Below are positions 27,904 to 33,108 of a stretch of 64,000 nt of DNA, in pieces. The DNA is from Bacillota bacterium (lineage in GTDB: Bacteria; Bacillota; Clostridia; Peptostreptococcales; Anaerovoracaceae), in contig JAGAHX010000025.1 in NCBI GenBank assembly GCA_017626845.1, positions 1-64,000 of the forward strand, read 5' to 3'. Each line of letters begins with the position of its first letter. Position 1 is the stretch's first letter. The notes under the pieces were generated by a model, which made no database searches, was not told the origin of the DNA, and was given only the letters and a program-made list of their open reading frames with translations. Made by a program: the position numbers and the translations under genes.

Positions 27904-30318
27904 TTATAACACAGCGGACAGGTCTTGGGCATAGCGCACCGTGTCCATGGCGTCCTTTGCATAGCAGTCGCTGCCGATCTTTTCCGCAAAATCCGCCGTC
28001 AGCACCGCTCCGCCCGTCAGGACTTTGCACCAGGGCGCCTTCTCTTTCAGGAGATCGATGGTCTCCTGCATGGCGGGGACGGTGGTGGTCATCAGGGCGG
28101 AAAGGCCCGCGATGGGGGCGTGCAGCCTCGTGACCTCTTCCAGGATCTTCGCCGGCTCCACATCCTTGCCCAGATCCACGACATCGAATCCGTAGCTTTC
28201 CAGCAGCAGTCTTGCGATGTTCTTTCCGATATCGTGGATGTCGCCCTTTACCGTGGCGACGACCACGGTGCATTTCTTTCCCGCATCGTCCTTCGGGCGG
28301 AGAGCCATGACGGCCTTTACCTCTTCGAAGGCGGCAGAAGCTGCTTCTGCGCTCATCAGCAGCTGGGGCAGATAGACGGTGCCGGCCGCAAAGCCGTCCC
28401 CTACCGTGTTAAGCGCCGGAATGATCTCTCCGTTGATGAGATCCACCGGTTCCGTCTCCTTCAGGATCTGCTTCGCGAGCAATCCCGCCTGCTCCTTAAA
28501 ACCCTTCACGATGGCGTTCTGCAGTTCGCTTCCTGCCTTTGGGGCGTCCGCAGCCGGTGCGGATACCGGGGCTGCAGCGGCAGTTGCCGCCGGATGAGCC
28601 TCACAGTAGCGGATATAGTCTCCGCAGCTTTCATCCAGGCCTGCCAGCGCCCGGAAGGCGTAGAAACTGCGCATCATATCCTCCGCATAGGGATTGATGA
28701 TGGCGGCGGAAAGTCCCCGGTCCAGGGCCCGCAGGAAAAAGGCGCTGTTCACGGCGCCCCGGGCGGGCAGTCCGAACGAGATGTTGGATACGCCCAAAGA
28801 AGTGCAGCATCCCAGTTCCTTGCGGATGCGTTCCAGGGCATCCAGGGCGATATTTGCAGCATCTGCGGACGCGCTCACGGGCATGGCCAGCGTATCGAAG
28901 ATGAGGTCTTCCTTTCCGATGCCGTACCGGGCGGCTTCGGCGATGATCTTCTCCGCGATCTGCACCCGCTTTCCTGCATCCATGGGAATGCCTTCTTCAT
29001 CCAGCGTCAGGGCGATCACCGCCCCGCCGTACTTTTTGACCAGGGGGAACACCGCATCCATGGATTCCTGTTTTCCGTTGACGGAGTTCACCAGGGGTTT
29101 ACCGTTATAGATCCGCATAGCGGCTTCCAGCGCCGCGGGATCGGAGCTGTCCAGCTGCAGCGGCAGATTGGTGACCGCCTGGATCTCCTCCACCGCTCTT
29201 TTCAGCACGGCAGGCTCATCGATGCCGGGCACGCCCACATTGACGTCGATGGCATGCACGCCCTTCTCCTCCTGGCCGGCTGCCTCGTTCAGCAGATAGC
29301 TCATGTCTCCGTCCAGGATCGCCTGCTTCAAGCGTTTCTTCCCGGTGGGATTGATCCGCTCGCCGATCAGCACGGGTTCGCGGCCGAAGACAGCGGCATG
29401 CGCATAGGACGAAATGACGGTGCGGCGCTTTGGTCCGACCGCAGCAGGCTTCAGATCCCGCACCTGCTTGGCGATCGCCCGTATCGTCTCCGGGGTCGTG
29501 CCGCAGCAGCCGCCGACGATGCGCACGCCCTTTTTCACCGCCTCCGCGGCGTAGACGCCGAATTCTGCCGGGGTCACATCGTAGACCGTCTGCCCATTCT
29601 CCAGTTTCGGCAGCCCCGCATTGGGCTTGAAAATGATGGGACGGGACGAGGCTTTCAAGTACTGCTCCGCGATAGGAAGCAGCATATCCGGGCCCAGGGA
29701 GCAGTTCATGCCGAGGGCGGAGACGCCGAGGCCTTCCAGCATCGCCGTCATGACGGCGGGGTCCGCTCCCGTCAGAAGCCGGCCGTTGTCGCTGTAGGCG
29801 TTGGAGACAAAGATGGGCAGATCGCAATTCTCCTTTGCGGCCAGCACAGCAGCCTTCGTCTCGTAGCAGTCGCTCATGGTCTCGATGAAAACAAAGTCCG
29901 GATGCTGCGCAGCGCCGGCCCGGAGGAAGACCGCAAAGGCCTCCACCGCCTCTTCGAAATCCAGATCGCCGAAGGGCTTCAGGAGTTTGCCGCAGGGTCC
30001 CACGTCCAGTCCCACCCATTTCGGCTGGGGCGCAGAGCTTTCTTCCGCAGCCCGCCGGGCATTTGCCACGGCCGCCGCTGCGATCTGCTCCAGTTCCTCC
30101 TTGGAAAACCGGAGGCCGCAGGCCCCGAAGGTGTTGGTGATGACGGCGTTGCTGCCGGCGTCGAAATACGCCCTATGAATGCCCGTGACCACCTCAGGAT
30201 GGCGAATGTTCCAGGGCTCCGGCCGCTCGCCGGGCTGCAGACCCTTCTCCTGCAGAAAACTGCCCATGCCGCCGTCCAGGATCAGGACGTTATCTTGTAT
30301 GTAGTCTAAAATCTTCAT
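27904..30318 (-). CDS. metH: Cobalamin-dependent methionine synthase lacking the activation domain
   Basis: The enzyme moves a methyl group from methyltetrahydrofolate to homocysteine through cobalamin. The 804-residue protein has the homocysteine domain (zinc cysteines in GMNCSLG and VGGCCGTTPE), the pterin domain from about residue 310 (GERINPTGKK, DVNVGVPG), and the B12 cap and binding domains from about 590 with the cobalt-ligand motif GDIHDIGKN near 695. E. coli MetH is over 1200 residues because it carries an AdoMet activation domain; here that domain is the separate gene just upstream (30322-30918). It is the third gene after metF. Confidence 0.95.
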   Translation of the reverse strand: MKILDYIQDNVLILDGGMGSFLQEKGLQPGERPEPWNIRHPEVVTGIHRAYFDAGSNAVITNTFGACGLRFSKEELEQIAAAAVANARRAAEESSAPQPKWVGLDVGPCGKLLKPFGDLDFEEAVEAFAVFLRAGAAQHPDFVFIETMSDCYETKAAVLAAKENCDLPIFVSNAYSDNGRLLTGADPAVMTAMLEGLGVSALGMNCSLGPDMLLPIAEQYLKASSRPIIFKPNAGLPKLENGQTVYDVTPAEFGVYAAEAVKKGVRIVGGCCGTTPETIRAIAKQVRDLKPAAVGPKRRTVISSYAHAAVFGREPVLIGERINPTGKKRLKQAILDGDMSYLLNEAAGQEEKGVHAIDVNVGVPGIDEPAVLKRAVEEIQAVTNLPLQLDSSDPAALEAAMRIYNGKPLVNSVNGKQESMDAVFPLVKKYGGAVIALTLDEEGIPMDAGKRVQIAEKIIAEAARYGIGKEDLIFDTLAMPVSASADAANIALDALERIRKELGCCTSLGVSNISFGLPARGAVNSAFFLRALDRGLSAAIINPYAEDMMRSFYAFRALAGLDESCGDYIRYCEAHPAATAAAAPVSAPAADAPKAGSELQNAIVKGFKEQAGLLAKQILKETEPVDLINGEIIPALNTVGDGFAAGTVYLPQLLMSAEAASAAFEEVKAVMALRPKDDAGKKCTVVVATVKGDIHDIGKNIARLLLESYGFDVVDLGKDVEPAKILEEVTRLHAPIAGLSALMTTTVPAMQETIDLLKEKAPWCKVLTGGAVLTADFAEKIGSDCYAKDAMDTVRYAQDLSAVL

Positions 30319-30321
30319 GGT

Positions 30322-30918
30322 TTATTCCTCATCGCGTATGCCGACCAAAGCCGTTACAGATTTTGTGGGGCTCATCAGCAGGCTGTCCGTCAACGTGAGC
30401 CCGATCTGTTTCTGGCAGTCCAGCGCCGAAAAGATAAACGGCTGATATTCCAGGCCGAAGTCGCCGAAGCCGGGGCTGTAGCGGGGCTTCAGGGACGGAT
30501 GACCACAAAGCAGATCCGGCAGTTCTTCGCAGAAGGCGTCGCACAGGGCCTCGATCCCAGCAGCGCCGATCGCCTGAAACCACAGGGCTTTCGCAGGGGA
30601 AAGCCTGCCGTATTTCGCCAGCAGCCGGTCGATCTCGATGCCCAGCGTCCCCGCGAACAGCACCAGGGAGGAACATCCCTTCAGGTTTGCCGCCAGCTTT
30701 TCGGAAGACGTCCGGCAAAAGCCCAGATCCATCCGCTCGCCGCAGCGCAGGATGGGAAACTGCCGCCAGCACAGCCTGCCCCGGATCTCCCCCAGTTCTT
30801 CCAGGCAGGAAAGCATGAGGGCATCCGGCTCCGCCGTCTTCGGCGCGCCGGCATACCGCATCACTTCGGACAGATCCGGCTGCAGATCCCGGTAGGTTTT
30901 TACTGCGGTCGTACTCAT
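30322..30918 (-). CDS. Stand-alone methionine synthase activation-domain protein
   Basis: A 198-residue protein matching the C-terminal activation domain of MetH. The diagnostic segment is RYSPGFGDFGLEYQ followed by LTLTDSLLMSPTKSVTALVG, which in full-length MetH binds AdoMet and the reactivating flavodoxin-type partner. It probably docks on the shorter MetH encoded 3 bases downstream, to re-methylate oxidised cobalamin. The stop of metF overlaps its start by 4 bases. Split MetH is known in Clostridia and some other bacteria. Confidence 0.9.
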   Translation of the reverse strand: MSTTAVKTYRDLQPDLSEVMRYAGAPKTAEPDALMLSCLEELGEIRGRLCWRQFPILRCGERMDLGFCRTSSEKLAANLKGCSSLVLFAGTLGIEIDRLLAKYGRLSPAKALWFQAIGAAGIEALCDAFCEELPDLLCGHPSLKPRYSPGFGDFGLEYQPFIFSALDCQKQIGLTLTDSLLMSPTKSVTALVGIRDEE

Positions 30919-31793
30919 TTCACGTTCAGGATGGCCGAGACGTTATTCAAGATACCGGCGGCCACTTCCGGCTTGTTCATGGTGTACACGTGCACGTTGC
31001 GGACACCGTTGGCGAACAGATCGATGATCTGCTCCGTTGCATAGATGATGCCCGCCTGCTGCATGGCGGCTGCATTGCTGCCGAAGCGGTCCACCAGAGA
31101 GGTAAACCGGATGGGCATATGGCAGCCGGAAAGATTTAAGGCTTTCTCCACCTGGTTCGCGTTGGTGATGGGCATGATGCCCGGGATCACCGGCACGTCG
31201 ATGCCGATGTCTCTCACCCGATATAGAAAACTATAAAACAGATCGTTGTCGAAGAACATCTGTGTGGTCAAAAAATCGCACCCGGCCTTCACTTTTTCTT
31301 TCAGATGGAGAAGGTCCTCGTTCCGGCAGCTGCTTTCGGGGTGCACTTCCGGATAGCAGGCGCCGCCGATGCAGAAATCTCCGGCCGCCTTCAGCTCTTC
31401 CACCAGCTGGTAGGCATTCCGGTAGTCCCAGCCGCTTCGGTCCTGCCCTTCCATCTCCGGGGTCAGGTCGCCCCGCAGCGCCATTACGTTCTCGATGCCG
31501 CTTTCCTTAAGGGCTTCGATGTACCCGGCCACCTTCTCCTTGGAGGAGCTGACGCAGGTGACGTGGGCCAGTACGGGCACGCCGGTCTGTTCCTTGATGT
31601 TCTTTGCAATGTCCAGCGTAAAATCGCTGGTGCCGCCGCCTGCGCCGTATGTGACGCTCACGAAGGAAGGCCCCAGCTTGGCGATCTCTTCGGTGGCTCT
31701 GCGCACGTTCTCCAATCCCGTGCTCTTTTTCGGCGGAAAGACCTCGAACGAGAGTCTGTATCCGTCCTGCTGCAAAATCTGACTGATCTTCAT
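30915..31793 (-). CDS. metF: 5,10-methylenetetrahydrofolate reductase
   Basis: MetF makes methyltetrahydrofolate for methionine synthesis with FAD as cofactor. The start is the ATG at 31793 (GGGGAGATAGATAAC upstream), giving 292 residues; the longer frame runs through the leader hairpin and is not used. FEVFPPK near residue 17 holds the catalytic glutamate, and VTYGAGG and HVTCVSSSKE form the FAD and folate pocket. MetF, the activation protein and MetH are encoded in consecutive, overlapping genes and catalyse consecutive steps. The operon is preceded by a leader peptide and terminator. Confidence 0.95.
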   Translation of the reverse strand: MKISQILQQDGYRLSFEVFPPKKSTGLENVRRATEEIAKLGPSFVSVTYGAGGGTSDFTLDIAKNIKEQTGVPVLAHVTCVSSSKEKVAGYIEALKESGIENVMALRGDLTPEMEGQDRSGWDYRNAYQLVEELKAAGDFCIGGACYPEVHPESSCRNEDLLHLKEKVKAGCDFLTTQMFFDNDLFYSFLYRVRDIGIDVPVIPGIMPITNANQVEKALNLSGCHMPIRFTSLVDRFGSNAAAMQQAGIIYATEQIIDLFANGVRNVHVYTMNKPEVAAGILNNVSAILNVK

Positions 31794-31810
31794 GTTATCT
31801 ATCTCCCCTG

Positions 31811-31855
31811 CAAAATAAAAACCGGATAACGCACGGTTTCGTGAGTTATCCGGGT
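31811..31855 (-). terminator. Attenuator terminator ahead of metF
   Basis: On the minus strand, bases 31855-31840 pair with 31835-31820 (core CCGGATAAC/GTTATCCGG, CACG/CGTG, loop AAAC), followed by TTTATTTTG. It lies after the leader-peptide stop and 18 bases before the metF ATG. CCGGGTA within the leader (complement of 31910-31916) is exactly complementary to TACCCGG at the base of this stem (complement of 31850-31856) and could form an antiterminator. Confidence 0.75.
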
Positions 31856-31879
31856 AATGGGCTCCAAACCTCGTTTGCG

Positions 31880-31957
31880 TCACAAAACAAGGTCCGGTAA
31901 ATATTCCCGTACCCGGCTGCGCCGCATCATCATGTTGTTTCCGCAGATGTGGATCAT
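31880..31957 (-). CDS. Methionine-rich leader peptide of the metF operon
   Basis: A 25-codon frame with its own CCGAGGAGAAAGC ribosome site, starting 26 bases after the predicted transcript start. Codons 7-13 read NNMMMRR, so three consecutive Met codons lie in the middle, plus the initiator. The stop codon is followed after about 25 bases by the attenuator terminator. Placement directly ahead of methionine biosynthesis genes suggests ribosome stalling at Met codons when charged tRNA-Met is scarce. The peptide itself probably has no other role. It is a prediction from sequence. Confidence 0.65.
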   Translation of the reverse strand: MIHICGNNMMMRRSRVREYLPDLVL

Positions 31958-31989
31958 GCTTTCTCCTCGGTTTGTTTCTTTACCAGAAT

Positions 31990-32018
31990 ATTCTATCCCA
32001 GCCTGCCGGATAAGTCAA
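31990..32018 (-). promoter_or_regulatory. Promoter of the met operon
   Basis: On the minus strand TTGACT (32013-32018), 17 bases and TAGAAT (31990-31995) form a strong sigma-A promoter. It lies inside the last codons of mnmA. Transcription should start near 31983, leaving a leader of about 190 bases before metF. Confidence 0.75.
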
Positions 32019-33108
32019 CAGGGTTCTTGCCGGTCTCGATCACGCCGCCGCCAAGGACTGTATCGCCGTCGTAGAGCACGGCATACTGGCCCGGTGTCGG
32101 GGCCCGCTGGGGTTCGTCGAACGTCAGGATGACCCTTCCATCCCCCGCCGCTTCCGCCGTCACCGGCGTTTCCGTCTGCCGGTAGCGCAGCTTCGCCGTA
32201 CCGCGGACCCGCCCTTCCGGCGCTTCGCCCGCGATCCAGTTGAAATCCCTTACTTCCACCCGCGTCTCAAAAAGATCCGCGCTGTCTCCCAGCGTTACCG
32301 TGTTGGCCGCCGCATCGATGGCGCAGACGAACACCGGCTTGCCCCAGGTGTTGCCCAGGCCCTTGCGCTGTCCGATGGTATAGTGGATCAGCCCCTTATG
32401 GGTGCCGATGGGATTTCCCTGCAGGTCCACAAAAGCCCCCGGCTCCGTCCCGGCCCCGCTTCCGTACCGCTGCACGACGTCCGCATAATCGCCGTCCGGC
32501 ACGAAGCAGATGTCCTGGCTGTCCGGTTTGCCCGCGTTCACAAAGCCATGTTCCGCGGCAACACAGCGTACCTGGTCCTTTGTGTACGATCCCAGGGGGA
32601 ACAGCGTGTGAGCCAGATGCTCCTGGGTCAGGCAGTGCAGCACATAGCTCTGGTCCTTGGAAGGGTCAAGCCCCTTCTTCAGCAGGAACCGGCCGTCCGG
32701 GCCCTGTTCGATCCGGGCATAATGACCCGTAACGATCTTTTCGCAGCCCAGTTCCTTCGCCCGTTCATACAGCCTGCCGAACTTCAGATAGCGGTTGCAC
32801 TCGATGCAGGGATTGGGAGTCTGCCCCTGCTCGTAGCTGGCGGCAAAGGGACAGATGACCTTTTCCATGAATTCGTCCTTGTAGTTGAACGCATAGAAAG
32901 GCATGCCCAGCCGGTAGGCGACGCTCCGGGCGTCTTCCGTATCGTCCAGACTGCAGCAGGTCTTGCCGGCCTTCACGGCACCGGCATCTTCCTCCGGGAG
33001 GTCCCAGAGCTTCATGGTGCAGCCGATGCAGTCGTAGCCTGCTTCTTTTGTAAGGAGAGCTGCGACGGAGGAATCCACGCCGCCGCTCATGGCGATGAGT
33101 GCTTTCAT
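31993..33108 (-). CDS. mnmA: tRNA-uridine 2-sulfurtransferase MnmA
   Basis: MnmA makes 2-thiouridine at the wobble position of tRNA-Lys, -Glu and -Gln using ATP and a sulfur carrier. The start at 33108 gives 371 residues; the longer open frame overlaps the EamA gene. The PP-loop MSGGVDSSVAALL is at residues 7-19, the first active cysteine is in NPCIECNRYLKFG near 99, and the second in SQDICFVPDG near 195. The C-terminal beta domain is complete. The start overlaps the EamA stop as ATGA. The met operon promoter lies in its last codons. Confidence 0.95.
   Translation of the reverse strand: MKALIAMSGGVDSSVAALLTKEAGYDCIGCTMKLWDLPEEDAGAVKAGKTCCSLDDTEDARSVAYRLGMPFYAFNYKDEFMEKVICPFAASYEQGQTPNPCIECNRYLKFGRLYERAKELGCEKIVTGHYARIEQGPDGRFLLKKGLDPSKDQSYVLHCLTQEHLAHTLFPLGSYTKDQVRCVAAEHGFVNAGKPDSQDICFVPDGDYADVVQRYGSGAGTEPGAFVDLQGNPIGTHKGLIHYTIGQRKGLGNTWGKPVFVCAIDAAANTVTLGDSADLFETRVEVRDFNWIAGEAPEGRVRGTAKLRYRQTETPVTAEAAGDGRVILTFDEPQRAPTPGQYAVLYDGDTVLGGGVIETGKNPVDLSGRLG

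Follow-up and report, generated by a model that had tools for sequence, protein, structure and literature searches.

Control of bacterial methionine genes is known to us through SAM riboswitches, Met T-boxes or repressors such as MetJ, and in Firmicutes T-boxes or riboswitches are usual. The window analyzed here, a stretch of 64,000 nucleotides from a member of the family Anaerovoracaceae (Clostridia), carries between metF and the gene upstream of it a short reading frame with three consecutive Met codons, followed by a terminator. This arrangement raises the question of whether methionine supply is sensed at this locus by a translating ribosome. A classical methionine attenuator would add an amino acid to the list of those sensed through leader peptides, and it poses a puzzle in that the sensed amino acid is also required to start the leader peptide. 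The analyses presented below indicate that the leader very likely controls the metF-metH operon by ribosome-mediated transcription attenuation, responding to the supply of charged Met-tRNA. The peptide, its Met codons and the terminator are well supported; the putative antiterminator has comparative support, but in the window itself its formation would exclude the terminator only in part; methionine sensing by the metF leader is what we infer from these parts.

Organization of the metF leader and operon

The leader lies on the minus strand between the upstream gene and the metF ATG (31793). Its elements and the genes that follow are:

31990-32018, minus strand: promoter TTGACT-N17-TAGAAT (TTGACT 32018-32013, TAGAAT 31995-31990), from the sequence and a promoter scan
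31963-31968, minus strand: ribosome-binding site GAGGAG of the leader ORF, from the sequence; AAGGAG or similar at equal distance in relatives
31880-31957, minus strand: leader peptide ORF of 25 codons, MIHICGNNMMMRRSRVREYLPDLVL and stop, from the sequence; length kept in genomes G005, G002, G004 and G003
31925-31933, minus strand: putative regulatory Met codons 9-11, ATGATGATG, invariant in 5/5 close metF leaders
31910-31916, minus strand: putative antiterminator 5' arm CCGGGUA, complementary to 31850-31856
31864-31897, minus strand: predicted central hairpin over the ORF end and stop codon, enclosed by the antiterminator helix
31850-31856, minus strand: shared segment UACCCGG, the putative antiterminator 3' arm and the base of the terminator 5' arm
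31817-31853, minus strand: intrinsic terminator, stem 31853-31822 and U5 31821-31817; -19.5 kcal/mol by folding
30915-31793, minus strand: metF, methylenetetrahydrofolate reductase (PF02219, E 3e-83; TIGR00676 above cut-off)
30322-30918, minus strand: ORF with a weak match to the B12-dependent methionine synthase activation domain (PF02965, 24.2 bits, cut-off 25)
27904-30318, minus strand: metH, B12-dependent methionine synthase (PF02574, PF00809, PF02607 and PF02310; homocysteine-, pterin- and B12-binding domains)

The earlier note on this DNA had described the succession of promoter, GAGGAG site, 25-codon frame with Met at 9-11, terminator and metF, and every element was recovered at its place. 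The promoter is of the sigma-A type and represents the single sigma-70-like site found in the region by the promoter scan (0.3 expected in shuffles). An internal mismatch in the stem kept the terminator from being recognized by the simple pattern of the same scan; folding detects it. The leader thus combines an ORF with a ribosome site between promoter and structural gene (read from sequence, its translation being predicted), a codon run for the amino acid that the downstream genes make (MMM before metF), and an intrinsic terminator between ORF and structural gene (-19.5 kcal/mol plus U5). Both strands of the 64 kb were scanned for short ORFs that have a ribosome site, contain a run of three identical residues and are followed by a hairpin and T-run. 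Only the metF leader ORF and one unremarkable alanine-containing ORF were returned, an outcome that speaks against a chance arrangement, and none of the other ATGATGATG sites inspected in the window's own genome is a leader before met genes.

No Rfam family, including SAM, T-box and amino-acid leader families, matched positions 31600-32300 at E values up to 5, and a search of the whole window at gathering scores returned no SAM-I, other riboswitch or T-box either. The window's genome does hold three T-box (RF00230) matches, none of them at gathering score inside the window. The covariance search therefore bears out the earlier reading that no SAM or T-box motif is present, and a SAM, T-box or other Rfam element in the leader is ruled out.

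Conservation of the leader before metF

A 25-codon ORF occupies the matching place in five genomes of the genus, including the window's own (metF 83-100% identity; 83-95% for the four others, G005, G002, G004 and G003). The five encoded peptides are MIHICGNNMMMRRSRVREYLPDLVL, MIHICGNNMMMRRSRVREDLPDLVL, MALTFGYIMMMRCFRAGDVHPGSVL, MIFIYRNSMMMRGFQGRVGIPDLVS and MLHIAVNNMMMCMRRGRALRTDQVF, and all five have MMM at exactly codons 9-11. Among the four diverged metF leaders only 2-9 of the 21 other codons agree pairwise, and the invariant codons are 1, 9, 10, 11 and 24. All four close relatives have TTGAC(A/T)-N17-TANAAT where the window has its promoter, and their ribosome site and terminator are likewise kept; terminators of the other metF leaders range from -16 to -22 kcal/mol. 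The TTACCCGG of the shared segment is invariant in an alignment of five metF leaders, and a counterpart of the central hairpin is predicted at the corresponding position in the relatives. G007, of the same genus (metF 56% identity), has the promoter TTGACA-N17-TATAGT and a 35-codon ORF with spaced Met codons (M.M.M), downstream of which lie CUCCCGGGU and then a terminator with the 5' arm ACCCGGGAG, giving a predicted antiterminator of 10 bp. It should be noted that this sample is small, consisting of five close leaders and G007 within the genus, plus one from G361. The frame, Met run, terminator and complementarity are thus conserved upstream of metF within the genus, and neither of the outcomes that would have told against an attenuator, an unconserved Met run or a SAM or T-box match, was encountered; beyond the genus, a metF leader was found in one other genus only.

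These data also bear on the reading that an undescribed metabolite riboswitch for SAM, homocysteine, methylfolate or B12 drives the terminator, with the ORF being incidental. The leader folds well (z about -3) and precedes folate- and B12-dependent enzymes, as such an element would. On the other hand, nothing in Rfam matches it, the frame and Met positions are kept although other codons change, and RNA structures vary by leader group while metF, metN and metQ alike are preceded by Met codons, a ribosome site and a terminator. We therefore regard a riboswitch of this kind as very unlikely.

Predicted switching between terminator and antiterminator

The attenuator reading of the leader presents two potential states.

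1. Methionine is plentiful. The ribosome would pass the three Met codons and reach the stop codon, where it would unfold the CCGGGUA arm and the central hairpin; the terminator could then form and the operon would be off.

2. Charged Met-tRNA is scarce. The ribosome would presumably stall on codons 9-11, so that CCGGGUA (codons 14-16) stays available to UACCCGG as a pairing partner. The resulting helix would occupy the base of the terminator stem, allowing RNA polymerase to continue into metF-metH. With the usual ribosome footprint, the leading edge falls short of the arm when Met codon 9 or 10 is in the A site, and touches it at codon 11.

The direction of this response and the role of Met-tRNA as its signal are proposals drawn from the arrangement of the leader, and the alternative fold is a product of computation. 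As the earlier note had pointed out, CCGGGTA (31916-31910) is exactly complementary to TACCCGG (31856-31850). From the CCGGGUA arm to the terminator loop, the window leader is predicted to fold at -31.5 kcal/mol (z -4.4). All six metF leaders are predicted to fold as an antiterminator over the terminator 5' arm, around the central hairpin, with z-scores of -2.3 to -4.4 in five of the six and -1.4 in G004, and the position of the arm shifts by a few bases among them. Mutual exclusion of terminator and antiterminator is clear in G007 and G002. In the window the overlap is limited to the 4 bp at the base of the terminator, and the lowest-energy full fold accommodates five antiterminator pairs alongside the upper terminator stem. 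The suggestion that the 7-base element acts as antiterminator hence gains from the comparative folds and is weakened by this limited overlap. Another pairing, the 6-bp CAAACC/GGUUUG, would join sequence upstream of the ribosome site to sequence downstream of the stop codon; it occurs in the window and G005, is absent in G002, G004 and G003, and was dropped.

Since duplex tests of leader against terminator arm were mostly not significant one by one, switching was assessed by a state-based test on a set of 15 leaders in which each genus and operon is represented once. Moving the ribosome from the Met codons to the stop is predicted to alter sequestration of the terminator 5' arm more than it does in shuffles (Fisher p = 0.001), a conclusion that holds for the set and not for the window alone and that was obtained with a crude footprint model, the folding tests comparing states of unequal length with shuffles as control. 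For the window leader by itself, neither the switching score (p about 0.6-0.75) nor the duplex score lies above shuffles. In many leaders the predicted sequestration is equal whichever Met codon holds the stalled ribosome, because the arm lies beyond all Met codons.

Folding predictions made with no ribosome present differ between leaders: those before metF form the antiterminator, and those of other genera (L238, L256-L258, L264) leave the terminator free to form. The former prediction is what would be expected if initiation itself were the control point, such that scarce initiator Met-tRNA or a failed ORF start would leave the antiterminator standing as the default, with little role for the internal Met run. 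Given the opposite prediction in the other genera, and since no part of the leader is better conserved than the internal Met run, control at initiation appears improbable.

Met-rich leaders elsewhere in the genome and the family

The window's own genome contains a second leader, MTYRFANNSMMMPMHMVMAMCDVCVFQKSDAFHRAS (MTYRFANNSMMMPMHMVMAM...), before metQ-metN-metI, which encode the methionine importer. With seven internal Met codons and a terminator, it is a stronger case than the metF leader. The metQ genes of relatives are preceded by similar leaders, in other genera as well (for example, MTLVKRTDMLMMDGMMMCMMMCKTF... in G010 and MTLRNANKFMMMDMCMAMPM... in G034). A scan of 350 Anaerovoracaceae genomes with the pattern ATGATGATGNNNATGNNNATG matched 126 of them, and 32 of the 68 loci inspected are short Met-rich ORFs directly upstream of metN, metQ or metF, in 10 genera; with the metQ leaders found separately, the family's tally rises to at least 13 genera. 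Terminators are clear in most of them by automatic detection, and leaders before metQ or metN in other genera have 5-11 internal Met codons. In one large genus ATGATGATGGAAATGGGAATG occurs in dozens of genomes, and the inspected copies precede metN. Among 30 class-level pattern loci inspected outside the family, a Met leader was recognized once (L288, before metN, in one other family). The metF leader was found in two genera only, the window's and that of G361; 23 of the 25 metF loci scanned in the family have no Met leader, and none was seen in 20 further metF upstream regions. The broadly conserved target of the Met leaders is consequently metN/metQ, not metF. The second leader before metQNI and the many others in the family strongly favor the methionine attenuator put forward in the earlier note. 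The signature of a short Met-rich ORF plus terminator should aid the annotation of regulation and of small ORFs in many uncultured gut bacteria.

Sequences like MMMEMGMMGMCMC are reminiscent of metal-binding peptides, and a Met/Cys-rich peptide could in principle have a job of its own, e.g., copper binding, with the terminator being unrelated. We give this scarcely any credence, as the metF peptides have little in common except MMM, and the ORFs stand before methionine genes with a terminator mostly in between.

The composition of the leaders is more relevant to the possibility that they sense cysteine plus methionine, that is, the general supply of sulfur amino acids. Cys makes up 5.8% of leader residues, an enrichment, and typically sits beside Met codons (MCMC, MMMCMMMC); a Cys-rich leader-like ORF also stands before metQ in L183. 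However, the metF leaders of the genus hold 0-2 Cys against 3-5 internal Met, no Cys codon is fixed and G004 has none. Joint sensing is thus unlikely on present evidence, yet the Cys enrichment of the leader peptides means that the signal may not be methionine alone.

Three further observations were made at these loci. The ORF in L183 (G023; ...VRMCGCCCMCMESDCSS), about 330-245 bases before metQ, is possibly a cysteine-sensing counterpart. In L245 (G027 contig C144) a Met-rich leader and terminator precede a substrate-binding protein unlike MetQ, which possibly belongs to another importer of methionine or a sulfur compound. Finally, MetQ of the window's genome (L141:6427-7281, G000 contig C35) and its relatives L178-L187 appear to be circular permutants: all 22 matching solved MetQ/NlpA chains align in two stretches, and in the best one the order is swapped, query 188-282 corresponding to 4ib2_A 11-105 and query 32-166 to 4ib2_A 111-249.

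Distribution of SAM-I and T-box elements

The sensors on these genes differ between families of the order. By coordinates (same contig and strand, within about 3 kb), metQ has an upstream SAM-I in 11 of 12 genomes of other families and in 0 of 19 of Anaerovoracaceae. Similarly, SAM-I lies within about 2.5 kb of metF in 9 of the 12 other-family genomes and in none of Anaerovoracaceae according to the tables compared. Anaerovoracaceae usually have one SAM-I per genome, which precedes metK in 13 of the 14 loci inspected; the fourteenth shows no metK within the short stretch examined. The stretch with SAM-I and metK of the sister genome G005 finds no match in the window's assembly (G000), so that the missing SAM-I there is probably an assembly gap. 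T-boxes number mostly 1-8 per genome in Anaerovoracaceae versus 7-26 in the other families, and for amino acids other than methionine, too, leader peptides may have taken the place of T-boxes in Anaerovoracaceae.

This distribution suggests that uncultured gut Clostridia of Anaerovoracaceae probably sense methionine by ribosome stalling instead of the SAM riboswitch of their relatives. A broader scenario, which we offer tentatively and hold somewhat more doubtful than not, is that Met-tRNA-sensing leaders displaced ancestral SAM-I elements on genes for methionine uptake and synthesis, leaving SAM-I only on metK, with the metF type being on by default without translation. If so, uptake would follow the translation pool, SAM synthesis would follow SAM itself, and a default-on metF type would suit an amino acid that is also required to start translation. 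It would represent a natural exchange of sensors between sister families on the same operons, from SAM to, probably, charged Met-tRNA.

Comparison with known systems

The Proteobacterial his, trp, thr, leu and ilv attenuators share with the present leaders a short ORF with a ribosome site, a run of cognate codons, a terminator with an alternative antiterminator (a predicted one in the present leaders), and cognate genes downstream. Here, in contrast, the regulatory codon also starts translation and no Rfam leader family matches; moreover, without translation the metF leaders are predicted to read through, whereas the Proteobacterial type, as in trp and his, terminates.

Leader-peptide attenuation in Firmicutes has also been reported for the His leader of bacilli, described by Naville and Gautheret together with the exchange of sensing systems (PMC2965389), and for branched-chain amino acid leaders of Listeria (PMC5864092) and Staphylococcus (PMC5794164). 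The present leaders differ from these in the amino acid and genes concerned, in belonging to uncultured Clostridia and in the replacement of SAM-I. In Actinobacteria, Seliverstov et al. (PMC1262725) detected no regulatory RNA structure upstream of methionine operons, and the re-annotation of Streptomyces lividans (PMC8079986) lists a predicted leader, metL, likewise before a methionine importer (metNIQ). That peptide, MSTTSDRTPATEATTTPGARCMCRRMCAF, has only two Met after the start, no clear terminator according to PMC8079986 and no comparative support there. The open-access literature searched contained no methionine leader-peptide attenuator in Firmicutes.

SAM-I (RF00162) and Met T-boxes (RF00230) also control methionine genes through premature termination, and in related families SAM-I sits on these very genes. 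Their ligands, however, are SAM or uncharged tRNA, bound directly, and neither model matches the metF leader. The class of mechanism is old; as far as could be seen, its novelty lies in the amino acid concerned, in the taxonomic setting and in the apparent replacement of SAM-I.
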